DNA of 26,297 nucleotides from an uncultured Verrucomicrobium sp. (GTDB lineage Bacteria > Verrucomicrobiota > Verrucomicrobiia > Methylacidiphilales > GAS474): the NCBI GenBank assembly GCA_903889845.1, contig CAISZB010000452.1:1-26297 (forward strand). The letters are read 5' to 3'. How positions within the stretch are numbered: the stretch's first letter is position 1; every line of letters begins with the position of its first letter. The notes beneath the pieces are model-generated. The model made no database searches and was not told the origin of the DNA. It was given only the letters and a program-made list of their open reading frames with translations. Of this stretch, positions 5,231 to 26,094 are shown in pieces. The position numbers and the translations under genes are program-made.

Positions 5231-6205
5231 TCAGCTTTGCAATTGGAGCAGCGCGCGGCGGACCAGGGCGAGGGCGATCGGGACCTTGTAGCCGTTGTGT
5301 TCGAGGGGCTGCGCCTCCTTGAGGAGGAGGTCGGCGGCCTGGGTCGCCGTCGCGTCGTCGAGGGCCAGGGGTTTCCCCTCCAGGAAGGTGTTCGCCGCCT
5401 CGGCCTGGTGCGGCATCGGCGAGATGGAGCCGAGCGCGATTCGCGGTCCCTTCATTTTCCCGCCGTCGATGCCCGTCGCCGCGGCGCAGCTCACCAGGGC
5501 CCAGTCGAAGGCGTGCTTCTCGCTCGCCTGGAGGTAGGCGCTGCGGGTGCGGAGGAGCGGGACCTCGACGCGGACGACGAGGTCGCCCGGTTCGAGGGAA
5601 TGGTGGGTGAGGGGATTCTCCCACGCACGGTGGTAGAAATCGGCCATGCTCCACCGCAGTTCCTTCCCTTCCCGCACGACGACGGCGACGGCGTCGAGCG
5701 CGGCGAAGGCGACCGCGAGGCTGGAGACCATCGGGCTGACGCACGGGTTGCCCGTGAAGAGGGTGTGGTAGCGGTTCTCCCCGTTCCGGGCGAAGCAATG
5801 GTCGCCCCCCTTCTTTAGGCAAAGGGTGTCCCGGTGGCGGAAGTACCAGCAGCGGGAATGCTGCGCGAGGTTCCCGCCGACGGTGGCGACGTTTCGGATC
5901 TGGGGCGAGGCGACCTCGGCGGCGGCGGCGGCGAGGCCGGGGAAGGCGGCCTTCAACCCGGGATGTTTCTCGACCTGCGCGACGGTGGCCAGCGCCCCGA
6001 TGGACCATCCGGCTCCGCTCTGTTCGATCTTCCCGAGGCCGGGCAGCGCCTTCACGTTGACGAGGAGGTCGGCCTCGACCAGGCCCTCCTTGAGGAGACC
6101 CAAGAGGTCGTTGCCGCCCGCGAGGTAGGCCCCGTGCTTGCTTGATGAGGCGAGTTGGCGGGCGCTTTCCGGGGACAACGCGGTGGCGTAGGAAAACGGT
6201 TTCAT
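5231..6205 (-). CDS. paoB: PaoB/YagS-like FAD- and 4Fe-4S-binding subunit of aldehyde oxidoreductase
   Basis: The FAD-binding (CoxM/PCMH-like) subunit of a xanthine dehydrogenase-family enzyme, which passes electrons between the small iron-sulfur subunit and the acceptor. The 324-residue product has the FAD motifs YLAGGNDLLGLLKEG (27-41) and NVATVGGNLAQHSRCW (105-120). It also has an inserted loop with four cysteines (119, 129, 137, 155; CWYF...CLKKGGDHC...GNPC). That insert characterises PaoB/YagS of E. coli, where it carries an additional [4Fe-4S] cluster, and is absent from ordinary xanthine dehydrogenase FAD subunits. There is no signal peptide of its own; by analogy export is by piggy-back on the Tat-bearing small subunit. 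The ATG at 6205 overlaps the stop of the large-subunit gene by four bases (ATGA), indicating translational coupling. Confidence 0.9.
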   Translation of the reverse strand: MKPFSYATALSPESARQLASSSKHGAYLAGGNDLLGLLKEGLVEADLLVNVKALPGLGKIEQSGAGWSIGALATVAQVEKHPGLKAAFPGLAAAAAEVASPQIRNVATVGGNLAQHSRCWYFRHRDTLCLKKGGDHCFARNGENRYHTLFTGNPCVSPMVSSLAVAFAALDAVAVVVREGKELRWSMADFYHRAWENPLTHHSLEPGDLVVRVEVPLLRTRSAYLQASEKHAFDWALVSCAAATGIDGGKMKGPRIALGSISPMPHQAEAANTFLEGKPLALDDATATQAADLLLKEAQPLEHNGYKVPIALALVRRALLQLQS

Positions 6206-8343: not shown

Positions 8344-9001
8344 GGAGGTCTCCCGGAGTCCCGTTGTCGGCGGCGCCGCCCGCGGCCTGGAGGACCGCCT
8401 CGACGACGCGCGGCTGGGTCCCGCACCGGCAGAGGTTGCCGGAGCAGGCGCGGCGGACGTCGGCGGGGGTCGGGTGCGGGTTTTCCTTCAGCAGCGCCGT
8501 GGCGGCCATCACGAAGCCCGGGGTGCAATAGCCGCACATCGTGGCGTCGCGCTCGGCGAAGGCCTTTTGGACCGGGGTGAGCTTTCCGTCCTGCGCCAGC
8601 CCCTCGACCGTCGTGATCGCGTGGCCCTGCGCCTCGATCGCGAGCATCTGGCACGAATAGATCGGCGCCCCGTCGAGGAGGACGGTGCAGGCCCCGCACG
8701 TCGCCCGGTCGCATCCCTCCTTCGTCCCGGTGTAGGTGGAGACATTGCGCAGCGCGTCGAGGAGGGTGACGCGGGGTTCGAGGGAAAGGGAGAGCGTTTC
8801 TCCGTTCACCCGCAGCGTGACCGGCACGGGGCCGGGGCCGACGATTTTTTCGGCATTGAGTTTTTCCAACTCGGCGGCAACGGCCTGGGTCTGGGAAGCG
8901 GCGGCGCTGATCGTGATCGCGCCGAAGCCCTTCAGGAAGGCCCGCCGGGAATGGGTCCCGAGGAGGGGGGCGTCGTCGGGATTCGGGTCTGGGGCGTTCA
9001 T
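8336..9001 (-). CDS. paoA: PaoA/YagT-like 2x[2Fe-2S] small subunit with Tat signal
   Basis: Electron-transfer subunit of the periplasmic aldehyde oxidoreductase. The 221-residue product carries an N-terminal twin-arginine signal (HSRRAFLKGFGA, Arg19-Arg20), followed by a short hydrophobic stretch and an Ala-x-Ala-like cut region near 36-44. It then has a plant-ferredoxin-like [2Fe-2S] domain (Cys97, 102, 105, 117; EGCDRATCGAC...YSC) and a helical second [2Fe-2S] domain (Cys156, 159, 191, 193; MCGYCTPG and NLCRC). The ATG at 9001 is chosen because it begins just before the Tat motif; an open frame further upstream to 9196 overlaps the mocA-like gene and looks non-coding. It follows the mocA-like stop by 1 base. 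The Tat signal implies that the assembled complex is exported folded. Confidence 0.93.
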   Translation of the reverse strand: MNAPDPNPDDAPLLGTHSRRAFLKGFGAITISAAASQTQAVAAELEKLNAEKIVGPGPVPVTLRVNGETLSLSLEPRVTLLDALRNVSTYTGTKEGCDRATCGACTVLLDGAPIYSCQMLAIEAQGHAITTVEGLAQDGKLTPVQKAFAERDATMCGYCTPGFVMAATALLKENPHPTPADVRRACSGNLCRCGTQPRVVEAVLQAAGGAADNGTPGDLHA

Positions 9002-9002
9002 C

Positions 9003-9656
9003 CTAGGTGGGTGGCGTGAAAGGAACGGACGCTGCGGCCAACGCCTTTCTATAATCCTCGGGCGTGTCCAAGTCAAGGGACAGCCCCCCGTCGTCGCTGG
9101 GCCACCCCTGCCGGACCAGGGAGCCGGACCGCTCTTCCTCCTCCAAAAAATCGCGCAGCGTCGCCGCCGCCGTTGTTCCCAGGCGCATTCCCACACTCCG
9201 GGGAAGGATCACGGGATGGCGCGGGCGGCCTTCGGTCATAAGGAAAACCGGCTGGCAGACCCTTCCGGGATGGGCCGCGTGAAAGGCGAGGAGTCCGGCA
9301 AGGGTCTCCGTCCGCAGATGGGGCTGGTCCCCGAGGGCGAAGGCCCACGCCTCCGTCTCCGCGCCCCAACCCTCCCACCGCGCCGCCGCGACGACGGAGG
9401 AGAACATCCCTTCCCCGTGCCGGGGGTTGACGATCCGGTCCCCGGGTGGGAGGCCGATCCGGTCGAGTTCCTTTTCCAAGGCGACATCGCCGGGCCGCAG
9501 CACGACGGCGACCCTCCCCACGCCTGCCGCCCGCCACTGCGCGACGAGGTGGCCGACGACGGTCGTCCCACCCCACGGAAGAAGGAGCTTCGGACTCCCC
9601 ATCCGGGACGAGGCCCCGGCCCCGAGGATCACGGCGGCGAGGGGGGAAAAGCTCAT
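9003..9656 (-). CDS. mocA: MocA-like molybdopterin cytidylyltransferase (NTP-transferase)
   Basis: Nucleotidyltransferase predicted to convert molybdenum cofactor to the molybdopterin cytosine dinucleotide form used by xanthine oxidase-family enzymes. The 217-residue product has the GT-A/MobA-like signature LGAGASSRMGSPKLLLPWGG (11-30), NPRHGEGMFSSVVAA (77-91), the metal-binding ALGDQPHL (107-114) and LDLDTPEDYRKAL near the C terminus. The ATG at 9656 overlaps the XdhC-like stop by four bases (ATGA). Its position directly before paoA-like suggests that it serves this enzyme. MocA (CTP) is favoured over MobA (GTP) because of this partner and by E. coli precedent, but nucleotide specificity cannot be read with certainty from the sequence. 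Confidence 0.88.
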   Translation of the reverse strand: MSFSPLAAVILGAGASSRMGSPKLLLPWGGTTVVGHLVAQWRAAGVGRVAVVLRPGDVALEKELDRIGLPPGDRIVNPRHGEGMFSSVVAAARWEGWGAETEAWAFALGDQPHLRTETLAGLLAFHAAHPGRVCQPVFLMTEGRPRHPVILPRSVGMRLGTTAAATLRDFLEEEERSGSLVRQGWPSDDGGLSLDLDTPEDYRKALAAASVPFTPPT

Positions 9657-10570
9657 GCCTTTGCCAACGCGGCCCGTTTCTCGATCAACTGCGCGACGAC
9701 GCTGACCGCGATCTCCTGCGGCCCGACGGCCCCGATGGCGAGGCCGACGGGGCAGGCGATCCGGTCGAAGCGCTCCGCCGTGGCGAGGTCCCGTTTCAGG
9801 AATTGTTCCCGGATCACGCGCGCCTTCCGGCGGCTCCCGATCATGCCCAGGAACGCGAAGGGGAACCCGATCCACTCGGAGAGGACAAGGGCGTCGTGCT
9901 GGTGGCCCCGGGTGATGATGAGGCCGAAGGCGGGGACCTCCGCGCCGGGCGCGTCCTGCAGCAATTCATGCCATGCGCCGACGCGGAGCCGGACGGCGAG
10001 CGGGAAAAAATCGGGATGGGCGAAGGCGGGCCGGTCGTCGAAGACGGTGACGGCGAAATCGAGCTGGAGCGCAAGCGGCGCGACGGCCTGGGCGACGTGG
10101 CCGGAACCGGCGATCCAGAGCGCGACCGGCGGCGCGACCGTTTCCCGGTAGCGGCCCTCCTCCTCCGGTTCCCGGACGACGGCGAAGGCCTCGCCGATCC
10201 CCCACCGGACGGCCTTCGGCAACGCCGGATCGGCCAGCTCGCGCCAGAGGGCGGCCTCGGCGCGGGCGTGGGGCAGGATCACCCCCTTCACGCTCCCGCC
10301 GCAGATCAATCCGTCGTCCCAGCCGAAGAGGTGGTCGAGGGCGATCTCGAACGATTCGGGCTGGCCCGTTTCGAGGGCCTTGAGGGAGCGTTGCCGGACC
10401 TCGGCTTCCAGGCAGCCTCCGCCCAGCGTCCCGGCCATCGTGCCGTCGGCAAAGAAAAGGGCCTTCGCCCCCGCGCGCTGGGGGCTCGATCCCTTCGTCC
10501 CGGCGATCAGCGCGAGGGCGAAGGGAACCGGGCGGGAGCAGGCGGCGGCGAGTGTCTCGTAAAAGCGCAT
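9653..10570 (-). CDS. XdhC/CoxI (PaoD-like) molybdenum cofactor insertion chaperone
   Basis: Chaperone of the XdhC/CoxI family, which binds the matured (sulfurated) molybdenum cofactor and hands it to the large subunit. The 305-residue product has the N-terminal XdhC_CoxI block (ALALIAGTKGSSPQRAGAK, 18-36; GTLGGGCLEAEV with Cys53; LICGGSVKGVILP, 88-100). Its C-terminal Rossmann-like half has LWIAGSGHVAQAVAPLA (151-167), ITRGHQHDALVL and GMIGSRRKARVI. This is the full two-domain architecture. The ATG at 10570 is preceded by a purine-rich GGAAGGGGGG at good spacing. It lies 26 bases behind the TPR gene and starts the tightly overlapping molybdoenzyme gene set. E. coli PaoD belongs to the same family, hence the functional analogy. 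Confidence 0.92.
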   Translation of the reverse strand: MRFYETLAAACSRPVPFALALIAGTKGSSPQRAGAKALFFADGTMAGTLGGGCLEAEVRQRSLKALETGQPESFEIALDHLFGWDDGLICGGSVKGVILPHARAEAALWRELADPALPKAVRWGIGEAFAVVREPEEEGRYRETVAPPVALWIAGSGHVAQAVAPLALQLDFAVTVFDDRPAFAHPDFFPLAVRLRVGAWHELLQDAPGAEVPAFGLIITRGHQHDALVLSEWIGFPFAFLGMIGSRRKARVIREQFLKRDLATAERFDRIACPVGLAIGAVGPQEIAVSVVAQLIEKRAALAKA

Positions 10571-14509: not shown

Positions 14510-16135
14510 CTATTTCCCCGCAACAGGCGTACTCGTCTGCGTGTCGAACGGGGAGGCGGGGAGGCCTTCCTTGTTGTAGAGATTGAGGGGGGGCCGGGCA
14601 TAGCCGGTGTGGCCGTAGCGGACGGCCTTCGGCTGGGGTACGGCGTCGCTCCAGACCAGGACGCTATCGCCCTCGATCTGCGCCTGCGCGGGAACGAAGC
14701 GGTTGTCGGTCCCGGCCACCTCGAAGCCGACGAGGCGGTCGGCGACCGCTCCGGGGACGGCTCCCGCCGGAGCCGGGGTGACGCCGATCGCCAGGCCACT
14801 TCCGACACGGCTGAAGCCGACCCTCATCTTGCCGCCCTCCTCCTGCGCCGAGGCATAGAGCGGGCCGGAGGCTACGAGGTCTTCCCCGTAGGCGACGCGG
14901 CGGGCGAGGAGGGCCAGGCGTCGGCCCACCTCGCTTTTTTCCTTCGGATGGACGTCGTGCTCCTCACCCAGGTCGATGGTGACGGCCAAGCCGGTGTTCG
15001 GCAGGGAGAGAGTCTTCAACTGCGCATCGCGGATCGGGACGAGGTAATCTCCTTCGGCCCAGGAAGGGATCTGGACGAGGAGGAAGGGAAAATCGCCCTG
15101 GCCCCAGCGGCGGCGCCAATCGCCGATGAGGGTCTCCAGCATCTTCGCGTAAGGCTGGCCGCCGTTGTTCGATTCGCCCTGATACCAGAGGACCCCTTTC
15201 AGGCTGTAGGGGATGAGGGGGGCGATCATGCCGTCGAAGAGAATGACGGGGAACTGGGGATAGGCGTCGGGGGAGTTCGGCTTTTTCGGCTCCGGCTCCG
15301 GCGTCGCCGGGGAGCCGGGGGCCGCCTGGGCGGTCTTCTGTTTCCAGGCCTCGTGCTCCTGTTCCCATTTGGGAAGGGTCGTGGTCCGGTAGGCGTCGAG
15401 GATCGCGGCCCAGTTGTCGCGCGTCTTCTCGAACTCGGAGACGAAGCCGGAGAGCGCGGGCTCCGCCCGGGTCGCCTCCAGGCTGGTCCACGACTGGGCC
15501 GCCGTCCCTCCCCAATAGGCGCCGATGAGGCCGAGGGGCTGACCGGGCCGGGCCGCTTGGAGTTCCTTGGCAAAGAAGAGGCCGACGGCGGAGAAGCCGT
15601 TCCACCCGCCGACCTTGACGATGTTCTCCGGCGTGCAGACGACCCACTGCCCCTTGAGGTTATCGCGGACGATGTCGGCCTGGGGCTCGAAGGCGATGCG
15701 ATGGGGGACGAGGAAGAGGCGGAGGCTGGGGAAGTTGAACTGCGGTACGATTGCAGCAGCGTTGGGCGCGTTGCCGATGCCGAATTCCATGTTCGACTGC
15801 CCCGAACAGAGCCAGACGTCGCCGATCAGGACGTCGGTGAAGCGGAGAGTGTTCCTGCCGCTGACCTGCACCTCCACCGGCGTCCGGGTGACGGGCAGGG
15901 GATCGAGGTCGACCCGCCATTGGCCGTTCGCATCGGCGACCGCCTTCCCCTGGCGCTCGCCGACGGTGACGGCGATTTCCTCGCCCGGATCGGCGGTGCC
16001 CCAGACGGGGAGCCTCACGTCCTGTTGGAGGACCATGTGATCCCCGAAGATCGCGGGCAGCTTCACGTCGGCCCGCGCCCCGGCGACCGCGCCCAGGCCC
16101 AGGCCTAGGAGGAGAAATAAGGCGGGGAATCTCAT
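14510..16135 (-). CDS. Sialate O-acetylesterase-like SGNH hydrolase, exported
   Basis: Carbohydrate esterase of the sialate O-acetylesterase (SASA) family, which removes acetyl groups from sugars such as sialic acids or acetylated plant polysaccharides; the true substrate is unknown. The 541-residue product has a signal peptide (MRFPALFLLLGLGLGAVAGARA), an N-terminal beta domain (LPAIFGDHMVLQQDVRLPVW, 26-45) and the SGNH blocks. These are WLCSGQSNMEF with the nucleophile Ser114, GAYWGGTAAQSW (205-216), GVLWYQGESNN (314-324) and the Asp394/His396 pair in HDVHPKEK. A Pro/Glu-rich insertion at about 270-290 is unusual. The C-terminal beta-rich part (about 415-541) fits the family. It begins 17 bases after the heparinase stop, so the two are a likely operon for extracellular polysaccharide breakdown. 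Confidence 0.9.
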   Translation of the reverse strand: MRFPALFLLLGLGLGAVAGARADVKLPAIFGDHMVLQQDVRLPVWGTADPGEEIAVTVGERQGKAVADANGQWRVDLDPLPVTRTPVEVQVSGRNTLRFTDVLIGDVWLCSGQSNMEFGIGNAPNAAAIVPQFNFPSLRLFLVPHRIAFEPQADIVRDNLKGQWVVCTPENIVKVGGWNGFSAVGLFFAKELQAARPGQPLGLIGAYWGGTAAQSWTSLEATRAEPALSGFVSEFEKTRDNWAAILDAYRTTTLPKWEQEHEAWKQKTAQAAPGSPATPEPEPKKPNSPDAYPQFPVILFDGMIAPLIPYSLKGVLWYQGESNNGGQPYAKMLETLIGDWRRRWGQGDFPFLLVQIPSWAEGDYLVPIRDAQLKTLSLPNTGLAVTIDLGEEHDVHPKEKSEVGRRLALLARRVAYGEDLVASGPLYASAQEEGGKMRVGFSRVGSGLAIGVTPAPAGAVPGAVADRLVGFEVAGTDNRFVPAQAQIEGDSVLVWSDAVPQPKAVRYGHTGYARPPLNLYNKEGLPASPFDTQTSTPVAGK

Positions 16136-16152: not shown

Positions 16153-18138
16153 CTACGGCTTGGCCTCCGGCGCGGGCGCGACCGCCGGGACGATCACCGT
16201 GCGGAGCACCACATGGGTGACCGGCTTCGTCAGGTTCACGCCCAGCCGCATCGGCGTCATCCCCTTGATGAGCCGGAAGCCGGTGATCGGTTCCACCTTG
16301 TTTTCGATCTGGACGCCGTCGCCCGCCCCCTCGACGGTCACGGTCGCGGCGAGGGCGTGGTTCTTCTCATAGACGAGGAAGGAGCCGGGACCGGTCTCCT
16401 TCCAGCCGGAGAGGGTGACGAGGGCGGAGCCGTAGTCGGTCGGCGCGGAGAAGTCGGCCTCGTCGACGATTTCGACCGACGGGCCCGTGCGGTTGAAGAC
16501 GTAGGTGCGGACGAGGCGCGTCAGGCTCGGCACCGGGTAACTCGTCGTCAGGTCCATCTTCAGCGTGTCCTGCGCGTCGGTGAATTCGTTCCCGATGATT
16601 TTCCCGAGGGCCTCTTCGCCGGTTTTCTGAAGCGTCTTCCCGACATAGGGCACGTCGTGCCCGTAGGAATTCATCATCATGCTCTCATACCGGTGCGGGC
16701 CGAAGGTGTTGATCGTGTAATCCTCCATGCCGGGATCGAGGAGGAGCGGCACGTTGCCCTCGGCGACGACGTAGCTGCCGTTGTCGTTGTGGCCGTGCCC
16801 CTGGTAATTCCTCCCACCCTTCACCGCCATCCCGAAGGGAGGCTGCCCCGGCTGGAGGGACCGGCAGATGAGGACGTTCCCTTCCCGGAAAAAGAATCGC
16901 TTCTCCTCGTCCTTATCTGAAACCGCTCCACCGGACGATCCCGCCACGGGACTCGCGCCGAACGTCGGCAGCGGGAACCCGAAGAGGCCGAAGCCATAGA
17001 GACGGTCCCCCAGCGGGTGGGCGCGGAACATGTCGGACTTGTCGGGCTCGAATTCGCCCCCGCTCCAATCCATCCCCCAGCGCTGCTTGATGAGCTGCAT
17101 CAGCGCCGAAGGCATCGAGCGCATCCGCGCGAAGGCATCGCCGAAGGCGGGGAAGACTTCCGGGACGATCCGAAAATGGGGCAGAAAGAGGGCGACCTGC
17201 CGCAGCTTCTCCCCCTCGTACAGGTTCACCTTCCCCTTGGTTTCCTGGTAGAGCGTTTCCGCCAGGCAAAGATAGGAGCCGAAGCCGTAGGCCCAATACC
17301 CGACCCCCTCGATGCAATAGCCGTCGTCGGTGAAGCCGTTCTTGTAGAATTCCATCGAGTTCAGCGCCGCCTGGACGAAGAGGGCGCGCTCCTGCGGGGA
17401 GTCGATCATCGTGAGGGCCGCGCCGACGACCCCGGAGGTGCAGACGGCGTTCCAGTTGTTCGTCCCGACCATCCAACCCCAGGACGGCTTCCCGGCGCGG
17501 ACGGAGGCCTCGTAGTTGGTGAAGATCCGCTTCCGCAATTCCGTGCGGATCGCCAACCGCGTCTCCGGGCGGAGTTTATCGCCCAGCCAGTAATCGACCG
17601 TCGCCAGGTCCCACGCCCGCGCCGAGGCGGCCAGGTCGATGGCTCCCTCCAGGCCCCCGTAGGGATGGGAGACGAGGACGTGGGCGGGGACGCCCCAGCT
17701 TTTTTCCTTCAGGATCGCGTCGAGTTCGGCCTCGACCTTCGGCAGGTAGGTGCCGTCATTGAGGACGCACTCGGCCACGGTGAAGGCGATCAGGCGCGTC
17801 GTCCGCTTCTGGAACGGCTTCTCGTACGTGTCCCGCATCCCCGTCTTCAGCACTTCGTTGAACAGCGCGTCGGTCAGTTCCGGCGTCGGCTCCGTCGCAT
17901 CCTGCGCCGCCTCCTTCACTTCGGCCTGGAAGGCGGGGAATTTCGCCGCCTGGGCCCAGGCCGCCCGGTCGGTGATCGGGGCGCCGACGCCGGTCGGCTT
18001 TTCGGGGAGCCAGGCCGCGATGCGGTCGATCTGTTCGGCCGTCGGAACGGGGAGGACCGGGGGTTCGTCGGCCCGCATCGGGGACGGTGAGGTGAGAAAA
18101 ATCAAAGCCGCCGCCGCTGCCGTTGCTCGATGAAACAT
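16153..18138 (-). CDS. Heparinase II/III-like polysaccharide lyase, exported
   Basis: Predicted lyase that cleaves uronic-acid-containing polysaccharides by beta-elimination in the periplasm or outside the cell. The 661-residue product begins with a signal peptide (ATAAAAALIFLTSPSPMRA). It continues with an alpha/alpha-toroid domain containing WMVGTNNWNAVCTSGVV (222-238) and DGYCIEGVGYWAYGFGSYL (272-290), which match the catalytic/structural blocks of heparinase II/III proteins. A beta-sandwich domain follows, with NYQGHGHNDNGSYVV (444-458), GMEDYTINTFGPHRYESMMMN and a C-terminal beta region. The substrate (heparin, alginate, chondroitin or another) cannot be deduced. The ATG at 18138 lacks a clear Shine-Dalgarno. 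The partner esterase downstream suggests joint attack on an acetylated glycan. Confidence 0.88.
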   Translation of the reverse strand: MFHRATAAAAALIFLTSPSPMRADEPPVLPVPTAEQIDRIAAWLPEKPTGVGAPITDRAAWAQAAKFPAFQAEVKEAAQDATEPTPELTDALFNEVLKTGMRDTYEKPFQKRTTRLIAFTVAECVLNDGTYLPKVEAELDAILKEKSWGVPAHVLVSHPYGGLEGAIDLAASARAWDLATVDYWLGDKLRPETRLAIRTELRKRIFTNYEASVRAGKPSWGWMVGTNNWNAVCTSGVVGAALTMIDSPQERALFVQAALNSMEFYKNGFTDDGYCIEGVGYWAYGFGSYLCLAETLYQETKGKVNLYEGEKLRQVALFLPHFRIVPEVFPAFGDAFARMRSMPSALMQLIKQRWGMDWSGGEFEPDKSDMFRAHPLGDRLYGFGLFGFPLPTFGASPVAGSSGGAVSDKDEEKRFFFREGNVLICRSLQPGQPPFGMAVKGGRNYQGHGHNDNGSYVVAEGNVPLLLDPGMEDYTINTFGPHRYESMMMNSYGHDVPYVGKTLQKTGEEALGKIIGNEFTDAQDTLKMDLTTSYPVPSLTRLVRTYVFNRTGPSVEIVDEADFSAPTDYGSALVTLSGWKETGPGSFLVYEKNHALAATVTVEGAGDGVQIENKVEPITGFRLIKGMTPMRLGVNLTKPVTHVVLRTVIVPAVAPAPEAKP

Positions 18139-18227: not shown

Positions 18228-20186
18228 CTAAGCCCGGCAGACTTGGCGACGCCGCACAACGATCAGGAGCGCCACGGTTCCCAGGGAGAGGAGCACCAAC
18301 GGGGAGGGCTCCGGCACGGCGACGGCAGTGAACGAGAGGACACCGCTCGAACTGAGGGTCGCCGTGTAGTCCGCCGTGTCGTAGCCGGTGATCGTCAGGC
18401 CCGAGACACTACTGCCGCTGGCAAAGCCGTTGAAGAGCGTGTAGCTGCTCCCATATCCCGCAAAGCCCGTCCCCAGCGTCAGCGACAGGGTGCCGCCGGA
18501 GATCGTGAACGTCCCCGTGCCGCTCCCCACGATCGAGTCGTAGGTGGCGTCGGAGGCCGTGCCGACGTTGAAGACGAGGGTGCCGCCCGTCATCGTGAAG
18601 TTTTGGTTGGCGGACAGGGTCAACGTCGCCGTGGTCGTCGTCCCGTCGAGGTCGAGGCCACCGGAGGAGAGCGTCACGCCGCCCCCCGTCGTCAGGGCGG
18701 TCTGGGCGACCTTCAGGAAGCCGTTTTGCACCGCGAGGGCTCCGATCGTCCGGTTCGAGACGAGCGTCGCCTCGCTGGCCGAGGTGGCAGAGCCGCTGTA
18801 AAGGAACGTCGAGGTCGCCGCGATCGTGCCGGTGCCGCTGAGGGTGTTCGCCGTGGCGTTCCCGCCCGTCGCCTGCAATGTGACGTTCCCCGAAATATTC
18901 GTCGTCGAGGCCGAGACCGAGCCCGTGTTGAAGTTGAACGACTGTGCCTTGACCGTACCGTTCCCCTGGATCGTCCACGATGTGCTGTAGCCCGAGGTCG
19001 ACTGACCACCGCTGAAGACGAAGCCGTTGGTCATGGAGGTGGCGTCGAGGGTGTATCCCGTCGAGGTGCCCGTATCGATGATGTACTGGGCGGCGGTGGC
19101 GGCACTGTAATTGGCAGCCAGGACGGTCGTCGAGGAAGAAGAGCTGAGCGTGAGGTTGCTCCCGAGGAGGAGTTCGACGGGCTGATTGGCGGCGGACTCC
19201 AGGAAGGTCAACGTGGCGATCGTTCCCCCGGTCGAGGTGATCGTCTTCACCGCCGTCGAGGTGTTTCCGCTGGCCCGCAAGGTCAGGTTCCCGATGTTCG
19301 CTGCCCCGAGCGCCAGGGACTGGTTGCCCGAGGTCCCGGTGGAGAAGAGGGAGGTTATGATGTTGCTGCTGATCGAGGTCAGGCCGACGAAACTATTCGT
19401 CGTCCCCGAAAGGACGAGGGAGGCCTGCCCGTAGCCCAGTCCCGACCCGATGGCGATCGTCCCCCCACTGGCGGTGAAATTGCCGCTCACATTGAAGCGA
19501 TTGTCCGTGGAGAGGCCGGTGGTTCCGCTCAACGGGGTGGCACCGAGGACCAGGGTGCCGCCGCTCATGGTAAAGGTGCCGCTCTCATACGTGTTGGAGG
19601 ACGACGTCGAGTAGGTTCCCCGCTCGGCATTGAACGTGCCGCCGGTCATCGAAACATTGCCGGAGATCGTCGCCGCCGAGGACGAGGCCGCCAGATCGAC
19701 CATCCCTCCGCTGGCCACGTTGAGGGTGCCGCCGCCGTTGCCGACGATGAACTTGATTCCGTAGGCCGTCGTCGGATCGACGTAGAGGATGCTGGTGCCT
19801 GCGCTGGCGCTGACCGTCACGTTGCTGGAGACCGTGAAGGTGCTCGACGTCGCGCTCGACGAGTTCTGGAGTACCAGTTCGTTGACTCCCCCGCTCACTT
19901 CGATGAACCCCAGCGTGCCGAGCGAGGCCGAGGCCCCCGCCAAGTCGTAGGTCGTCGCGCGGGTCGTTCCGGAAGAGACGTCGCCTAGGTAGGCGGTGTC
20001 GCCGGAACCGGGATAGGTCGATCCGGAACCGGTGACGACGGTCCAGTTTCCCGACGTCGCCCACGAGCCGCCCGCCGTCGAGCTGGCCCAGGTGTAGGTC
20101 GTCTGCGCTCGGGCCCCCAGCGGGACGGACAGGATGAGCAGAGCGATTAACGCTGCACAGAAAGTTGCGGCGCGGGGATTTTTCAT
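18228..20186 (-). CDS. PEP-CTERM surface protein with autotransporter-like beta repeats
   Basis: A secreted, probably surface-anchored adhesin-like protein of 652 residues. It has a Sec signal peptide (residues 1-27, cut ARA before Gln28; the ATG at 20186 is chosen for this over a start at 20219). Next is a long Ser/Thr/Gly/Asn-rich region of short beta-helix repeats such as MTGGTFNAE, TMSGGTLVLG, TASGGTIAIG and TISGGTLSLTLG. The C-terminal sorting signal is VPEPSPLVLLSL...VVRRRQ (from 624): a PEP motif, one transmembrane helix and an Arg cluster. PEP-CTERM signals are processed by exosortase, which is not encoded in this window. It is divergent from the LacI-type gene, and the 18 bp palindrome at 20256-20273 lies about 70 bases upstream of its ATG, suggesting control by that regulator. 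The sequence is repetitive and fast-evolving, so a ligand cannot be predicted. Confidence 0.92.
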   Translation of the reverse strand: MKNPRAATFCAALIALLILSVPLGARAQTTYTWASSTAGGSWATSGNWTVVTGSGSTYPGSGDTAYLGDVSSGTTRATTYDLAGASASLGTLGFIEVSGGVNELVLQNSSSATSSTFTVSSNVTVSASAGTSILYVDPTTAYGIKFIVGNGGGTLNVASGGMVDLAASSSAATISGNVSMTGGTFNAERGTYSTSSSNTYESGTFTMSGGTLVLGATPLSGTTGLSTDNRFNVSGNFTASGGTIAIGSGLGYGQASLVLSGTTNSFVGLTSISSNIITSLFSTGTSGNQSLALGAANIGNLTLRASGNTSTAVKTITSTGGTIATLTFLESAANQPVELLLGSNLTLSSSSSTTVLAANYSAATAAQYIIDTGTSTGYTLDATSMTNGFVFSGGQSTSGYSTSWTIQGNGTVKAQSFNFNTGSVSASTTNISGNVTLQATGGNATANTLSGTGTIAATSTFLYSGSATSASEATLVSNRTIGALAVQNGFLKVAQTALTTGGGVTLSSGGLDLDGTTTTATLTLSANQNFTMTGGTLVFNVGTASDATYDSIVGSGTGTFTISGGTLSLTLGTGFAGYGSSYTLFNGFASGSSVSGLTITGYDTADYTATLSSSGVLSFTAVAVPEPSPLVLLSLGTVALLIVVRRRQVCRA

Positions 20187-20255
20187 AAAAGGTCTTTCGA
20201 GCAATTGGGCTATCCCCACAGTAAGAGGGGGTTGGGCTTGCCGGAAGGGATTTGG

Positions 20256-20273
20256 AATGCCATTAGTAGCATT
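20256..20273. promoter_or_regulatory. Predicted operator of the LacI-type regulator (site 1)
   Basis: AATGCCATTAGTAGCATT is an 18 bp imperfect palindrome (14 of 18 positions symmetric) with outer arms AATGC/GCATT. It lies between the divergent PEP-CTERM and LacI-type genes and directly abuts the GTG at 20274. It has the same arms and spacing as two sites near 24950-24990. Autoregulation and control of the PEP-CTERM gene are inferred. Confidence 0.62.
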
Positions 20274-21332
20274 GTGAAAGGGCGGGTCATCTTACGCGAC
20301 GTGGCAGAGAAGGCGGGGGTCCATCTGACCACCGCCGCCCGGGCGATGAAAAACGATCCACGCGTCCGGCCGGAGACCCTGGAACTCGTCCAGGGCCTCG
20401 CCAGGAAGATGGGCTACGAGGTCGATCCGATGCTGACCGCGCTGAGCGCCTACCGCACCGCGAAGCGGCCCGCCCAATACCACGGCACCGTCGGCTGGAT
20501 CACCAATTACCCGACGCGGGACGGCTGGCGGCGGCACGAGGCCTTCCGCCTCTATCGGGAAGGGGCGGCCGAATCACTGGCCCGCCAGGGTTACCAGATG
20601 GAGGATTTTTGGCTTCAAGAACCGGGCCTCACGGCGCGGCGGGCCAGCCAGATCCTCCACAGCCGGGGCATCCGGGGCCTCCTCCTCTGCCCCCTCTCCG
20701 TCAGCTACGGTCACCTGAGCCTCCAGTGGGACCGCTTCGCCGCCGTCACCTTCGGCTACACGCTGCTGCGGCCCGAACTCCACTCCGCCACCGCCGCCCA
20801 TTACCACAGCATGCAGGTCTGCGTACGGAAACTGCGCCAGCTCGGCTGCCGCCGCATCGGCCTCGTCGCGCCGAAGTGGATCGACGACCGGATGCACCGG
20901 ATCTGGTCGGCCGCCTATCAGACGCAACTGCCCAAGATGCCGGGGGAAAGGCCGCTGCCCACCCTCTCCCTCGACGAATCGCTGGAACGCGACGATGTTT
21001 CCCAAAGGAAACTCTTTTTCAAGTGGTTCCGCGCCCATCGTCCCGACGCGGTCATCGCCTTCTGGGGGAGCTTCTGCGGGTGGCTCAGGGACGAGGGCTT
21101 GCGGGTACCGGGGGAAGTCTCCTTCGTTTGCCCCATCCTCCAGGAATCGGAGCGGGATGACTCGGGCATCGTCGAGCCGTCGCGGGAGATCGGAGCCGCC
21201 GCCGCCGACTTCCTCGTCGGCATGCTCCACCGGGGCGATTACGGGATACCGCGGATGCCGCAGCAAATCCTGCTGAAGGGGAAATGGAACCCGGGCAGGA
21301 CGGCGGGACGCCGCGCCCCGGCTACTCGCTGA
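20274..21332 (+). CDS. LacI-family transcriptional regulator
   Basis: DNA-binding regulator of the LacI/GalR family, expected to bind palindromic operators as a dimer and respond to a sugar-like ligand. From the GTG at 20274 the product has 352 residues. It starts with the helix-turn-helix (RVILRDVAEKAGVHLTTAARAM, about 4-25, then KNDPRVRPETLELVQ), followed by a diverged hinge (KMGYEVDPMLTALSAYR) lacking the usual hinge-helix residues, and a periplasmic-binding-protein-like sensor domain (GTVGWITNYP, REGAAESLARQGY, SRGIRGLLLCPL, GCRRIGLV, RPDAVIAFWGS, EVSFVCPILQ). In-frame TTG codons at 20238 (with AGAGGGGG six bases before) and 20205 are alternative starts; the GTG is preferred because LacI proteins begin a few residues before the HTH. 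It overlaps the convergent Verru_Chthon A gene by 11 bases. Confidence 0.9.
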   Translation: MKGRVILRDVAEKAGVHLTTAARAMKNDPRVRPETLELVQGLARKMGYEVDPMLTALSAYRTAKRPAQYHGTVGWITNYPTRDGWRRHEAFRLYREGAAESLARQGYQMEDFWLQEPGLTARRASQILHSRGIRGLLLCPLSVSYGHLSLQWDRFAAVTFGYTLLRPELHSATAAHYHSMQVCVRKLRQLGCRRIGLVAPKWIDDRMHRIWSAAYQTQLPKMPGERPLPTLSLDESLERDDVSQRKLFFKWFRAHRPDAVIAFWGSFCGWLRDEGLRVPGEVSFVCPILQESERDDSGIVEPSREIGAAAADFLVGMLHRGDYGIPRMPQQILLKGKWNPGRTAGRRAPATR

Positions 21333-24300
21333 CGGCCTCCAGTTGCCGGTCGACGATCTCCCCGGTGTAGCGGTCGATGGCGAGGTGGAGCCAATAGCGC
21401 CGTTCCCCCTCGACGAGGAAGTTTTCCGGCGCCGTCGTCCCCGCGGGGTACCGCCCCGACTGGGCGACGATGTCGATCATCAGGTTCCACGTCCGCGTGT
21501 TCGCCGACTCGGCGAAGGCGCGGACGACGGCTTCCCGTTCCGTTTTGATGCCGCCCGACGAGACTGCGCTGAGGCCGCTCACGCCGCTGTTCGTCCCCAT
21601 GAAGCGGGTGACGATGTCGGAACGGCTGACGAAGGGGTTATTGGTGGCGATGTTGCGGAAGGAGGTCGCCACGGTGGAGGCCGTCGAGGCGGCCAGGCTG
21701 GGGCTGTTGTTCGTGGCAGCCAGGTTCGCCCCGCTCAGCAGGGCCTTCAGGACGGGGAGCGGCGCGGTGTTCGGATTGACGTGCCCGGCGACCGTCGTCC
21801 CTTCCGAGAGGCTGAAGAGGTCGAGGAGGGCCGCGTCGGGACTGTCGCCGGAGAAGAAGTTGAGCGTCCGCCACGGCATGTCGCGGAAGGCGTAGCCCAT
21901 CTCCGCGACCGAGACGAAGGGCCGGTTGAGGAGGGCCGGCCGGGTCGTGTTATCGCCCGTGTAGTACGGCAGATGGCTGGAATTCACGGAATTCGCGGCA
22001 TAGGCGGCATCGCCCAGCCGCTGCGTCTTGTCCATGTCGGCATAATAGGCGGGGAGGCCGGACGAGCCGGTGCTCAGGCTGGTGTTCGTGTTGGCCGCCC
22101 ACATGTGGAGGTAGTAGGGGGTCAACCGGGACGTCCCGGCAAGGCCCAGCGGCAGATTGGAATAGGCCTGGCTGTAGTAGGTGGGATTGCTGCCGGAAGC
22201 GGGCATGAGGCTGCTGCCCGCGACCATGGGGCTGGCACCCGCCGTTCCCCAATTCAAGTAGCGCGGATCGAAGAAACCACACGCGTAACCCCACCGGGAG
22301 GTGCGGGGATCGGGTTTGGTGTAGGCGAAGCTGTTGGCGGAGTTGTCGGTCGTCGGAAACGTCCAGTATCCCGTGGTGAGGCCCCAGGAAAGGGCCGTCG
22401 TCCCTGAGGTCGAGGGCTCCAGCCCGGCGAGCGTGCTGTAGGTGTGGTATTTCCCGTTCCATTCGAATTGGAGGGGCCAGACCGCCGTCTGCGAGATCAT
22501 GCACTCCCAGCCCGAACTGTTGCTCCCGCTGGTGGTTAAGGGCCAGGACCAGACCGCCGGCCACGTCCTGGCCGCGCCGGAAGAAGAAGCCTTGCCGACG
22601 GTCGGAAGGCCGACCGAGGGCAGCACCAGTCCGGCGATGGTTTTGTTGTAGTCCGCCCCGCTGGGACTCGAATTGCTGTTGAGGACGTAGTTCGTCGGGA
22701 GGGAGGGACTGGCCGACGTCTGGGTGTAGATGAGGGCCGGTTCGCGGTAGTCGGTGGCCTGGGCGGTGAAGGGAATGACGCCCGCATTCGTGACGGCCGC
22801 GCTGTTGAAGTAGGTGGTGTTTTGGACGACCCAGCGGGTCGTCCCCTGGCCGTCCGCATAGACGATCTGGACTTGGTAGTAGTCTCCCGCATAGGGGGCG
22901 ATGCAGAAATTGCTGGGACGCGTGGCGGCAGGGGTATTGCCCAGATTCTGGTGGGGATTCCACAACTCGTGATAGATCATCGGCGTGACGACGGTGCTCG
23001 ACGCCGTCGTCGTCGCGGTGCCGCTCGACCCCGAGGAGACCGCCAGCGAATAGGTCTTGAAGAGGGCCTTGTTGTAATAGGGCAGGTCCTCGATGCCGAA
23101 GAAGTTGAAGCCGTTGAAGGTGATCGTCGTCGGCACACTGTCGGAGTCCCATTGGTCGATGACATTCGCCCCGATCCGGATGATCTGATAGGGGAGGATC
23201 GCATCGGGATCGGGATACGACGGCAACGCACCGGCCCCCAAATAGTCCGCCCGCCCGCCGAGGGTCCCGCCCGTACCGGCCCGCCCCAGGCCGAGGGAAC
23301 CCGAAAGAATGCCCGCCTGGAGGAGCTCGAAGAAATTCGGGTCCCGCTGGAGGGAAGCGATCTCGTCGAGGGTGAGGATGCGGCCGGTCACGCCGCCGTA
23401 GTTGTAGGCCGTGGTCGGATAGCTCCAATGGCGGTAGAGACCGTCGGAGGCGTCTTTCCCGGTTTCGACGTAGTCGAGGCCGAAGTATTTCTGGATCGCG
23501 GTCTTGTTCTGCTGCCACGTCGCATCGTTGGTCGTCGCCTCCAGGAGGGCCAGCTTGTCGAGCGGGAAGCGGTATTTGACGAACGGCTCCCCCGCGTTGC
23601 GGACGAGGCCGGCGTTGTTCGTATACGTCGTCTGGATCCGGGGGTTCAGGATGAAGACATTGGCGTTGTAGTTGGTGAGGTTGCCGGTGATGCCATTGTA
23701 GGAATAGGCGAGGGTGCTCAGCTTCGTCGTCGTCCCGTATTGATGACTGAGGTAATCGAAGGGGGTCCCGGCGGCATTCGTGGCGTCCGCAGCAGGGCCC
23801 CAGACGGGGCCGTTCAATTCCCGGCTGAAGGTGGTCAGGTAGGGGAGGGCGGCGGCCCACTTCGTGTAGCCGGGCTGGGTGGTGAATTTGATGAGTTCCT
23901 GCCGTCCCAGGAAGGCCGTGTCCCCCTGGGCGACCCGGAGGAAGCCGTTGGTCGCCCAGTTCGTGACGTAGGCCGCATAGCTCGCCGTGTTGGCCGTGTT
24001 GCGCCAGGCGACGAGGGCGTTGACGTCGGAGGAGGTGAGGGCGTTCGTCAACTGGGTCAGGTCGGCCCAGGGCAGGAGGCCCTTGCTGCCGGCGGAACCG
24101 CTTGCCGCGTTCGGATAGCCGGCGACGTTGACGTCGAGCAGGCCGCTGGTGTCGTAGACGACGTAGGCGTAACGCCCCAGAACGCCGTTCTTGTTCCCGA
24201 GGGCGCTGGAGAGGTCTCCCCCGGTCGGAATGACGGGGCCCTGGCGCCCCAGCAATACCCAGGTCGGAATGGGGAAATGGTTCGTCGCGGTACCCGGGAC

Positions 24301-24834
24301 CAGCTGGGGCAGGTCCCAGCGCCGGAGGCTGACGCTGCGGCCATTGAGGGAATTGGAGGTCGTCAGCACGGAGGCGGCGAAGTTCGTCCCCAGGCGGGTC
24401 GTGGTCGTGTAGAAGGGCGCGCCCGGCTTGCTGACCTTCACGATGAGCTGAAGAGCGGGGTCGGTCGAAAGATTGCTCATCCGTTCCGGCATCGTGGCTG
24501 CTCCCGTGAGCGGGCGGTAGACGGGGTAGTTCGTACTCTTCGGCAGCGTACTGTTGAGGGTGTTGGCGGTGCTGTTGATCGCGATGGAGTTGGTCGATTT
24601 GGCCGGATCGGCGATCTCCGCCTGGAGCTGGCTGACGATCTGCGCCAGGGCGCTGCCGGCGATCTGGTCGGCCTGGATACCCCGGCTATAACCCTCCGTC
24701 GATTGGCGATCCTTTGAAACAACGCTGACGAAGGAGACCAGCAGGACCGTCAGCAGGGAGAGAAGCGCAAGGGTCGTAACCAGGGCCACGGCCTTTTCCG
24801 GGGAGGCGGGAGAGCGTGAAGCGGCAGGAGTCAC
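21322..24834 (-). CDS. Verru_Chthon cassette protein A-like secreted/membrane-anchored protein
   Basis: A very large protein (1170 residues from GTG at 24834) resembling the Verru_Chthon cassette protein A family (TIGR02600), known from Verrucomicrobiota and of unknown function. It begins with a type IV pilin/secretion-like anchor: a short N-terminal stretch, one hydrophobic helix (about 16-40, ALVTTLALLSLLTVLLVSFV) and a helical SKDRQSTEGYSRGIQADQIAGSALAQI segment as in PilX- or GspK-like proteins. The long remainder is rich in Ser, Thr, Asn, Tyr and Trp, and the C terminus has NPNTAPLPVLKALLSGANL and a conserved-looking YWLHLAIDRYTGEIVDRQ end. The upstream open frame to 25965 lies opposite the dehydrogenase gene and is judged non-coding; the start is the GTG just before the anchor. 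The usual partner genes B, C and D are not seen nearby. A degenerate operator half-site lies 10 bases upstream. Confidence 0.82.
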   Translation of the reverse strand: MTPAASRSPASPEKAVALVTTLALLSLLTVLLVSFVSVVSKDRQSTEGYSRGIQADQIAGSALAQIVSQLQAEIADPAKSTNSIAINSTANTLNSTLPKSTNYPVYRPLTGAATMPERMSNLSTDPALQLIVKVSKPGAPFYTTTTRLGTNFAASVLTTSNSLNGRSVSLRRWDLPQLVPGTATNHFPIPTWVLLGRQGPVIPTGGDLSSALGNKNGVLGRYAYVVYDTSGLLDVNVAGYPNAASGSAGSKGLLPWADLTQLTNALTSSDVNALVAWRNTANTASYAAYVTNWATNGFLRVAQGDTAFLGRQELIKFTTQPGYTKWAAALPYLTTFSRELNGPVWGPAADATNAAGTPFDYLSHQYGTTTKLSTLAYSYNGITGNLTNYNANVFILNPRIQTTYTNNAGLVRNAGEPFVKYRFPLDKLALLEATTNDATWQQNKTAIQKYFGLDYVETGKDASDGLYRHWSYPTTAYNYGGVTGRILTLDEIASLQRDPNFFELLQAGILSGSLGLGRAGTGGTLGGRADYLGAGALPSYPDPDAILPYQIIRIGANVIDQWDSDSVPTTITFNGFNFFGIEDLPYYNKALFKTYSLAVSSGSSGTATTTASSTVVTPMIYHELWNPHQNLGNTPAATRPSNFCIAPYAGDYYQVQIVYADGQGTTRWVVQNTTYFNSAAVTNAGVIPFTAQATDYREPALIYTQTSASPSLPTNYVLNSNSSPSGADYNKTIAGLVLPSVGLPTVGKASSSGAARTWPAVWSWPLTTSGSNSSGWECMISQTAVWPLQFEWNGKYHTYSTLAGLEPSTSGTTALSWGLTTGYWTFPTTDNSANSFAYTKPDPRTSRWGYACGFFDPRYLNWGTAGASPMVAGSSLMPASGSNPTYYSQAYSNLPLGLAGTSRLTPYYLHMWAANTNTSLSTGSSGLPAYYADMDKTQRLGDAAYAANSVNSSHLPYYTGDNTTRPALLNRPFVSVAEMGYAFRDMPWRTLNFFSGDSPDAALLDLFSLSEGTTVAGHVNPNTAPLPVLKALLSGANLAATNNSPSLAASTASTVATSFRNIATNNPFVSRSDIVTRFMGTNSGVSGLSAVSSGGIKTEREAVVRAFAESANTRTWNLMIDIVAQSGRYPAGTTAPENFLVEGERRYWLHLAIDRYTGEIVDRQLEAVSE

Positions 24835-24844
24835 AAACAATCGC

Positions 24845-24862
24845 AATGCTATTTTAAGGGAG
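24845..24862. promoter_or_regulatory. Degenerate operator-like half-site upstream of the Verru_Chthon A gene
   Basis: AATGCTATTTTAAGGGAG shares the first nine bases and the AAG at positions 12-14 with the full palindrome at 24974-24991, but lacks the right arm. It sits 10 bases upstream of the GTG start at 24834. It may be a weak or decayed operator for the same LacI-type regulator, or chance. Confidence 0.3.
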
Positions 24863-24943
24863 CGAAAGCGCAAACACGCCTTCTGCTTAGGTAGGTTCCG
24901 AAAGAAGGGTGAAAGGCTTCGGGCGGCAGGGAAAGGCCCCCGC

Positions 24944-24961
24944 AATGCTTTCAATAGCATC
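24944..24961. promoter_or_regulatory. Predicted operator of the LacI-type regulator (site 2)
   Basis: AATGCTTTCAATAGCATC is an 18 bp imperfect palindrome (12 of 18 symmetric). Its sequence is 16 of 18 identical to the reverse complement of site 3 (24974-24991), so the two are inverted copies, start to start 30 bases apart. They lie between the divergent Verru_Chthon A and 2-hydroxyacid dehydrogenase genes. Confidence 0.62.
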
Positions 24962-24973
24962 GCCGGCGGCGGG

Positions 24974-24991
24974 AATGCTATTGGAAGCATT
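24974..24991. promoter_or_regulatory. Predicted operator of the LacI-type regulator (site 3)
   Basis: AATGCTATTGGAAGCATT is an 18 bp palindrome with perfect 6 bp arms; with the flanking GG and CC the perfect arms are 8 bp (24972-24979 and 24986-24993). It is about 110 bases upstream of the dehydrogenase ATG and about 140 bases upstream of the Verru_Chthon A start. Its 30-base spacing from site 2, about three helical turns, would place two bound dimers on the same face of the DNA. Confidence 0.65.
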
Positions 24992-25101: not shown

Positions 25102-26094
25102 ATGAAAACCCACCTCCTCTGCCTCCTCGACCAGATGTACTGGGAGCACGTCTACGGGCAGCCCGAGCGCGAGCGCCTGGCCGGGTTGGCGTCGACCCCG
25201 CCGCGCTTCCACACGAAGGAATCGATCCTCCGGCATCCCGAAGACCTGGCCCGGGCCGAGGTGATCCTCTCCGGCTGGGGCATGCCCCGCTGCGACGAGG
25301 CCTTCCTCGCCGGGGCGCCCCGCCTCAAGGCGATCTTCCACGCGGCGGGCAGCGTCCGCCCCTTCATCGACGACGCGGTGTGGCGCCGGGGCATCGTGGT
25401 CAGCAGCGCCAACGGCGCCCTCGCCATCACCGTCGCCGAATACACCCTCGCCCAGATCCTGCTCAGCCTGAAAGTGATGTGGCGGCAGGCGGCCGACATG
25501 CGCGCCACGCGGCGGCACCACCGCCAGCCGTTGCCCGGGATCTACGACAGCGTCGTCGGCCTCGTCTCCGTCGGCGCGGTGGCGCGGCACCTCCTCTCCC
25601 TCCTGCGCCACTTCGACCTGCGCGTCGTCGCCTACGATCCCTTTCTCCCGGAAGAGGAGGCGTGCCGACTCGGCATCGAGCTGGTCTCGCTGGAGGAACT
25701 CTTCGAGACCTCCCACGTCGTCTCCCTCCACACCCCGTGGCTGCCGGAAACGGAGGGGATGATCCGGGGCCATCACTTCGCCCGGATGCGGCGGGATGCG
25801 ACCTTCATCAACACCGCGCGCGGGGCCGTGGTGAACGAGCCGGAGATGATCGACGTCCTCCGGCGGCGGCCCGATCTCCAGGCCCTCCTCGACGTGACCC
25901 ACCCGGAACCGCCCGCGGACGATTCCCCGCTCTACGAGCTGCCCAACGTGATCCTGACCCCCCACATCGCCGGAGCCCTCGACGGGGAATGCCGCCGCCT
26001 GGGCGCCATGGCCATCGACGAATTCGAGCGCTACCTCAACGGCGAACCCCTTCAGGGCGAGGTCCGCGAGGCGATGATGGCGACGATTGCCTGA
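25102..26094 (+). CDS. D-isomer-specific 2-hydroxyacid dehydrogenase family protein
   Basis: NAD(P)-dependent oxidoreductase interconverting 2-hydroxy- and 2-oxoacids; the substrate is unknown. The 330-residue product has the split catalytic domain (1-103 and the C terminus) and a central nucleotide-binding domain. The catalytic residues are present: Arg240 in FINTARGAVVNE, Glu269 in DVTHPEPP and His288 in LTPHIAGAL. Asp179 in VVAYDPF sits where NAD-preferring members have an acidic residue. The glycine-rich loop is unusual: GLVSVGAVAR (153-162), where GxGxxG is expected, reads Ser156-Val-Gly158-Ala-Val-Ala161. The ATG at 25102 follows a GC-rich leader with a GCCGCC/GGCGGC repeat at 25063-25076 and no clear Shine-Dalgarno. 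Tandem operator sites 2 and 3 upstream suggest control by the LacI-type regulator. It ends 7 bases from the convergent dienelactone hydrolase gene. Confidence 0.88.
   Translation: MKTHLLCLLDQMYWEHVYGQPERERLAGLASTPPRFHTKESILRHPEDLARAEVILSGWGMPRCDEAFLAGAPRLKAIFHAAGSVRPFIDDAVWRRGIVVSSANGALAITVAEYTLAQILLSLKVMWRQAADMRATRRHHRQPLPGIYDSVVGLVSVGAVARHLLSLLRHFDLRVVAYDPFLPEEEACRLGIELVSLEELFETSHVVSLHTPWLPETEGMIRGHHFARMRRDATFINTARGAVVNEPEMIDVLRRRPDLQALLDVTHPEPPADDSPLYELPNVILTPHIAGALDGECRRLGAMAIDEFERYLNGEPLQGEVREAMMATIA

Follow-up and report, generated by a model that had tools for sequence, protein, structure and literature searches.

What do near-identical palindromes do when they recur on both sides of a single regulatory gene? 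We examined this question in a 26,297-nucleotide stretch of DNA from an uncultured Verrucomicrobium sp. (contig CAISZB010000452.1; the whole stretch is hereafter called the window), where three 18-bp palindromes flank a gene encoding a LacI-type regulator (hereafter lacI). Comparison of its sequence with those of related genomes indicates that the palindromes are very probably operators of this adjacent regulator, which would be the local repressor of a locus for polysaccharide utilisation and of surface parts regulated with it.

Palindromes around the lacI gene

An original prediction, made from the letters of the window, described three palindromes of the form AATGC(N8)GCATT with identical arms and spacing. 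This is exact for two of them, at 20256..20273 (operator 1, AATGCCATTAGTAGCATT) and 24974..24991 (operator 3, AATGCTATTGGAAGCATT), whereas the one at 24944..24961 (operator 2, AATGCTTTCAATAGCATC) has one arm mismatch (GCATC); none of the three is assigned a strand. As predicted, no other position in the whole 26,297-nt window matched the pattern at ≤1 mismatch. Base composition predicts 0.006 exact copies and 0.25 copies at ≤1 mismatch, and 2 and 3 were found. At ≤2 mismatches the window holds five copies versus 4.37 expected, which is chance level and makes the looser pattern uninformative.

The operators are placed in two divergent intergenic regions, one between a PEP-CTERM gene (- strand) and lacI (+ strand) and the other between a Verru_Chthon-A-like gene (- strand) and a dehydrogenase gene (+ strand). 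Operator 1 ends immediately 5' of GTG 20274, the likely lacI start since it aligns with the ATG picked as start in four orthologues, and is upstream of the PEP-CTERM gene, whose start is 70 bp away. Operators 2 and 3 are 30 bp apart, and the dehydrogenase gene begins 111 bp downstream of operator 3. An isolated perfect half-site (AATGCTATT, 24845..24853, + strand, read directly) adjoins the start of the Verru_Chthon-A-like gene; its function is doubtful.

The genome to which the window belongs (G000) comprises 2,886,325 bp in 593 contigs and is 82.7% complete. Exact AATGC(N8)GCATT is found in it at the two window positions and nowhere else, so the exact motif is not scattered over the genome. 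At ≤1 mismatch the pattern occurs at 29 places, compared with nine for a reversed control, and of these our study covers the window's three. In two other genomes this original, loose pattern was not enriched at ≤1 mismatch (G001, 13 versus 18 for the reversed pattern; G002, 26 versus 24).

Conservation of the motif with orthologous regulators

Orthologues of the regulator were analyzed in 12 genomes, including the window's, that represent three families; the 12 lacI loci total 217,520 bp. In the genome count, records L089, L090, L091, L092, and L093 were treated as the same as G029, G032, G318, G348, and G033, respectively. Genes in the relatives were called by codon usage, and gene starts there are approximate and wrong in places. 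The motif, putatively a LacI-type operator, was refined to ATGCTA-N4-TAGCAT.

The regulator of G002, a genome of the same genus, is 62% identical to that of the window, and AATGCCATCAGTAGCATC ends at its ATG, matching the position of operator 1. Three genomes from another family of the order (G029, G032, and G033; regulator 55-57% identical) carry ATGCTAWCTGGTGCAT 2-7 bp before the start, and more distant orthologues in G383, G038, and G040 have a site in the same lacI-proximal position. In total, a 16-bp core with ≤2 mismatches lies 1-8 bp before the lacI start in eight of the 12 ortholog-group genes, the window's included, so that the palindrome expected upstream of orthologous regulators was recovered there in its refined form. 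The remaining four genes (G318/L091, G348/L092, G098, and G400) are more distant orthologues from the family that holds Rariglobus (Opitutaceae-type) and form one nested branch of the ortholog clade. In one of them, a remnant with three mismatches overlaps the start codon; the other three score 5-6 mismatches. All four genomes have a ≤1-mismatch site elsewhere, before enzyme genes: before a GH5 gene in G318/L091, upstream of a GH42-like gene in G348/L092 and G098, and, in G400, on a contig other than that of lacI, 48 bp ahead of a GH5+CBM6 gene that shares 67% identity with a lacI-locus gene of G098. In G318, G348, and G098, a GH42-like enzyme gene, a PEP-CTERM gene and finally lacI form a same-strand series with the site near its head; the gene order of G400 differs. 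We infer that lacI autoregulation was relocated in this branch.

The 12 loci contain 11 copies of ATGCTA-N4-TAGCAT at ≤1 mismatch, three of them the window's own, and 19 at ≤2 mismatches. In the same loci, 149 palindromes with permuted arms averaged 0.11 copies (at most 2) and 2.8 copies (at most 16), respectively. We also scanned all gapped palindromes with 4-bp arms upstream of 118 LacI genes, a set that excludes genes with <160 bp of upstream DNA or an N-terminus identical to another's. ATGC-N8-GCAT ranked first (eight genes, versus 0.4 in shuffles). The refined motif, at ≤2 mismatches, was present no more than 40 bp from the start in nine of the 118. In a tree of 70 proteins, chosen from 117 full-length ones by best helix-turn-helix score, eight of these nine site-bearing regulators, including the window's, fell into one clade of 12 (support, 99/98). 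The site label changed three times on this tree, compared with a shuffled mean of 8.7, and none of 500 shuffles was as low.

The original prediction had also pointed to an operator centre other than the usual CG, and CG is indeed at the centre of none of the 18 sites in the operator profile (one doubtful site of 19 was omitted). Perfect-arm palindromes upstream of the 118 LacI genes were found 12 times, versus 7.7 in shuffles, and centre preference was not clear; we therefore make no general statement on CG centres in the lineage. A further suggestion, that the hinge of this regulator is diverged and may have co-diverged with its site, is not supported: among 41 relatives compared (42 loci less the partial L128), most have a similar hinge, and the leucine position is kept. 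That hinge leucine (L57), which in LacI-type regulators we take to enter the DNA, is invariant in five orthologues; in 3e3m and 3bil, the best two among solved structures, it aligns with a leucine.

Genes preceded by the motif

The idea that the regulator controls itself, two surface proteins and a dehydrogenase is supported by sites in other genomes for lacI itself, the PEP-CTERM gene, and the dehydrogenase gene; the case for the Verru_Chthon-A-like gene is weaker. Predicted control of the PEP-CTERM and dehydrogenase genes is well supported. The dehydrogenase gene is preceded by a site in four genomes, namely the window's and G029, G032, and G033, where a site containing TGCTCCCTGTAGCA stands before a dehydrogenase relative of 47% identity. 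The gene divergent from lacI in G002 encodes a PEP-CTERM protein 51% identical to that of the window; its counterpart in G038 and G040 falls below the PEP-CTERM cut-off. Heparinase II/III+CBM4_9 proteins are encoded divergently from lacI in G029, G032, and G033; a small gene intervenes in G033, and the domain searches covered G032 and G033 only.

Recurring neighbours and site-bearing genes encode enzymes of the GH5+CBM6+ricin-type, GH42-like, and GH2 classes, the dehydrogenase, PEP-CTERM proteins, and N-methylated pseudopilin-like proteins. Relatives of the GH42-like enzymes are named beta-agarase or beta-galactosidase in some sources, and an SSS-type transporter was recognized, by eye only, among the G002 neighbours. 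The genes that run behind the PEP-CTERM gene in the window, one for a heparinase II/III-family protein and one for a SASA-type esterase, lead us to take polysaccharide breakdown as the theme of the locus. These two genes beside a sugar-type regulator give the window the clustered carbohydrate-active enzymes and regulator by which polysaccharide-utilisation loci are recognized.

Matches elsewhere in the genomes

The 12 ortholog genomes contain 22 matches to the refined motif at ≤1 mismatch (four in G000; three in G033; two each in G029, G038, G040, G098, G318, and G400; one each in G002, G348, and G383; none in G032), 11 inside lacI loci and 11 off-locus. The lacI site of G002, a genome of one 3.76-Mb contig, is its sole match. 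Both off-locus matches of G029 lie before genes over the PEP-CTERM cut-off, at distances of 88 and 99 bp, and that of G040 precedes a GH2 gene near a contig end. Besides the site before its GH5+CBM6 gene, G400 has a second off-locus match 29 bp before the gene of a protein just below the PEP-CTERM cut-off (14 versus 16), which is followed by a DUF1559 gene. The off-window match of G000 (L179:1603-1620, contig C281) has one mismatch and is 26 bp upstream of an SDR gene, after which comes one for D-mannonate dehydratase (UxuA); it is suggestive of hexuronate catabolism, though it occurs at chance frequency.

Seven genomes served as a comparison set (G001, G034, G037, G039, G014, G007, and G009), in which no regulator exceeded 39% identity as best match among the matches listed. 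They gave 12 matches; the loci of 10 were inspected by eye, and none of these precedes such target genes. The evidence is carried by site position and targets, not by raw genome-wide counts. A genome-wide motif was rejected as an explanation, given that exact copies are confined to the window in G000 and raw counts of the refined motif are not raised.

Among the off-locus matches with no recognised target, a 1-mismatch site on contig C74 of G383 (L249) lies ~180 bp before a frame, itself unverified, that by eye resembles a TonB-dependent receptor.

Weighing the interpretation

Several results weigh against a local LacI-type regulon. The refined consensus was fixed after the window and the first relatives had been viewed, and the sites of the G029 and G032 loci have two mismatches each. 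Raw ≤1-mismatch counts were 16 versus 37 for the reversed pattern in nine genomes and 18 versus 31 in a further ten. No recognisable target was found for five of the 11 off-locus matches (two in G033 and one each in G098, G318, and G383). The single off-window match of G000 compares with 0.92 expected, and no ≤2-mismatch site is present at the uxu operons of G029 and G032, which leaves the G000 uxuA lead unconfirmed. The ninth site-bearing LacI gene (L153) falls outside the ortholog clade. Promoter scans of either intergenic region found no consensus sigma-70 promoter. The case for control of the Verru_Chthon-A-like gene, finally, comes from G000 and G002 and is weaker than that for the other targets.

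That the palindromes arose by chance, as AT-rich palindromes in a GC-rich genome, can practically be discounted. The original pattern does no better than expectation in the window at ≤2 mismatches, yet its stricter counts exceed the base-composition expectation, its exact copies are unique in G000, the permuted palindromes fall far short, and the motif is conserved in other genomes; chance was rejected on these grounds. It is also very improbable that the lacI-proximal palindrome is conserved as DNA coding for extra N-terminal residues of the regulator (NAISSI, read in frame in G000 and G002) rather than as an operator. In both genomes the lacI reading frame runs through the site and has a TTG upstream of it, and the two differences between the sites are at synonymous third positions. 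Across eight ortholog-group genes, however, the site falls in two different frames (three versus five), which led us to reject this explanation; moreover, G033 has an in-frame stop directly before the start, and other copies of the site precede unrelated genes.

A different regulator that happens to control the neighbourhood could also bind the palindromes. Association is no proof of binding, and G000 has eight LacI-type matches, the window's included. Nevertheless, we consider this quite unlikely: the sites track the orthologue clade; ≤2-mismatch sites are missing near the start of the G000 paralogues in L017 and L018; no further G000 LacI gene is among the nine site-bearing genes; and G001, of the same genus and without the orthologue, has zero ≤1-mismatch matches. 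The regulator might, alternatively, be an activator or act both ways, and upstream activation would find room in the 111 bp that separate operator 3 from the dehydrogenase start. This seems unlikely, as operators adjoining the regulator start codon suit repression and most characterized LacI-family members are repressors. Binding of the palindromes by the adjacent regulator, acting as a repressor, remains our preferred explanation.

Verru_Chthon-A-like genes and LacI paralogues

The product of the gene at 21322..24834 (- strand; 1,170 aa if GTG 24834 is the start) had been labelled Verru_Chthon A. Its N-terminal match to TIGR02600 covers residues 16-80 only and scores 29.2 bits, short of the cut-off of 332.3, and the protein is accordingly called A-like here. 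Companions of the Verru_Chthon B, C, and D types were not recognized beside it, although not every frame was searched there.

Relatives with 35-48% identity to the window protein are encoded near the lacI orthologue in G002, G029, and G032. In G002, PEP-CTERM, GH42-like, D/B/C-like, and A-like genes run co-directionally from a single operator in a plausible operon; the B companion is over its cut-off (54.6 versus 51.4), and C and D are below theirs. The operator of G029 and G032 comes after the A-like gene and before the dehydrogenase gene, and the closest A-like copy of G033 has no ≤2-mismatch site within 1.5 kb, so control of the A-like gene is unsupported in these genomes.

A-like genes are multi-copy and, in both genomes tested, lie near LacI paralogues more often than expected by chance. 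Four of 11 in G002 have a LacI gene no more than 10 kb away (random mean, 0.62; P = 0.002), 21 matches having been merged into 11 genes and one 80-residue fragment dropped. In G000, four of nine A-like contigs also carry a LacI gene (P = 6e-5, fragments counted). The trinucleotide core CTA-N4-TAG occurs upstream of 11 of the 118 LacI genes, compared with 0.8 in shuffles, and in all 11 the recognition helix begins with TT, a feature counted in these 11 genes only. A tentative reading, to which we give less than even weight, is that verrucomicrobial Verru_Chthon-A-like proteins, and PEP-CTERM proteins in many cases, function as surface or secretion modules for particular substrates, each with its own LacI paralogue for induction, and that the expanded LacI family of this lineage shares the CTA-N4-TAG core. 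Against the pairing with paralogues, the two listed LacI genes of G033 are on contigs other than those of its A-like genes. Against a shared core, the flanking bases vary (TGCTA, TTCTA, CCCTA, GGCTA, and others), with no clean match to one helix residue.

Other genes of the window

The regulator gene (20274..21332, + strand, GTG start) encodes 352 aa with the helix VHLTTAARAM. The helix-turn-helix matches Pfam LacI (PF00356) with 32.1 bits (cut-off, 27), and the periplasmic-binding-protein-like effector domain matches Peripla_BP_3 (PF13377) with 44.8 bits (cut-off, 26.5). At 20237-20247, the window has CTTGCCGGAAG, 11 bases identical to G002 at equal distance upstream of lacI, which may be a promoter element.

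The divergent PEP-CTERM gene (18228..20186, - strand) encodes 652 aa and scores 19.8 bits with TIGR02595 (cut-off, 16). The heparinase II/III-family gene lies 90 bp behind it (16153..18138, - strand) and encodes up to 661 aa, its start being uncertain; the product is 71% identical to a protein named heparinase II/III family, and its Pfam match is below cut-off (19.2 versus 24). Another 18 bp behind is the gene for the SASA-type carbohydrate esterase (14510..16135, - strand; 541 aa; PF03629, 79.3 bits; cut-off, 24.8). The D-isomer 2-hydroxyacid dehydrogenase (330 aa) is encoded at 25102..26094 (+ strand) and scores 149.9 bits with PF02826. A 47% relative of this enzyme is also encoded in L209 (G405), ~5.6 kb from a LacI gene outside the clade (42% identity), without a ≤2-mismatch site. 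Elsewhere in the window, a - strand gene run at 5231-10570 resembles, by eye, a cluster for a molybdenum hydroxylase of the xanthine or CO dehydrogenase type, together with genes for its maturation.

Discussion

The motif ATGCTA-N4-TAGCAT is conserved and goes with the regulator clade; in the mechanism that we propose, a dimer of the regulator would insert one helix-turn-helix into each half of it. Without inducer, it would block the promoter at its own start, the divergent run of PEP-CTERM, heparinase-family, and esterase genes, and the intergenic region between the dehydrogenase and Verru_Chthon-A-like genes, where operators 2 and 3, 30 bp apart, might be bound cooperatively. The inducer would be a breakdown product of a polysaccharide, perhaps a sugar bearing uronic acid, that binds the periplasmic-binding-protein-like domain and releases the regulator. 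Degradative enzymes would then be produced together with surface or secretion-linked parts.

The available text of Ravcheev et al. 2014 (PMC4052901) catalogues even palindromes for 1251 of 1303 LacI regulators, with a CG centre in 1173 and a different or degenerate centre in 78, and places >75% of sites 30-140 bp upstream. Like the local sugar-catabolic regulons described there, the putative regulon combines an even palindromic operator with control of the regulator's own gene, targets clustered around that gene, and a carbohydrate theme. Paired sites about three helical turns apart are likewise common to both (30 bp here, versus a peak at 32 bp in PMC4052901). By contrast, the centre is never CG in our 18 sites, the operators abut the regulator start in eight of 12 genomes rather than lying mostly 30-140 bp upstream, and the likely targets include PEP-CTERM and pseudopilin-like proteins, unlike those in the available part of PMC4052901. 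The string 'Verrucomicrob-' has no occurrence in the text of that paper.

Control of PEP-CTERM genes has been described for PrsK/PrsR of Proteobacteria (Haft et al. 2006, PMC1569441), which, in the text available, likewise involves a shared DNA site upstream of these genes. That system is a two-component system acting with sigma-54, whereas a LacI-type regulator is implicated here, and the PEP-CTERM association is with exopolysaccharide genes there and with degradative enzymes here. For the pseudopilin-like proteins, the available text on Verruconatronum alginivorum (PMC13274419) offers a likeness within the Verrucomicrobiota, namely a pseudopilin that belongs to a set of 17 genes over-expressed on alginate, which is a uronate polysaccharide, versus sucrose (one replicate per condition). 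The term LacI has no occurrence in the text of that paper, unlike the regulon proposed here. A literature search on Verru_Chthon found no paper, and one on Verrucomicrobia with LacI, PEP-CTERM, or pseudopilin found nothing like this regulon, as judged by title and the start of the abstract, with subscription literature mostly outside the search.

Haft et al. 2006 (PMC1569441), in the text available, expected that further PEP-CTERM regulators and DNA motifs were still to be found, inside and outside the Proteobacteria. The locus described here would answer that expectation with a candidate regulator, operator, and target list for a PEP-CTERM system in Verrucomicrobiota. Such a regulon would tie PEP-CTERM and pseudopilin-like proteins to polysaccharide breakdown.

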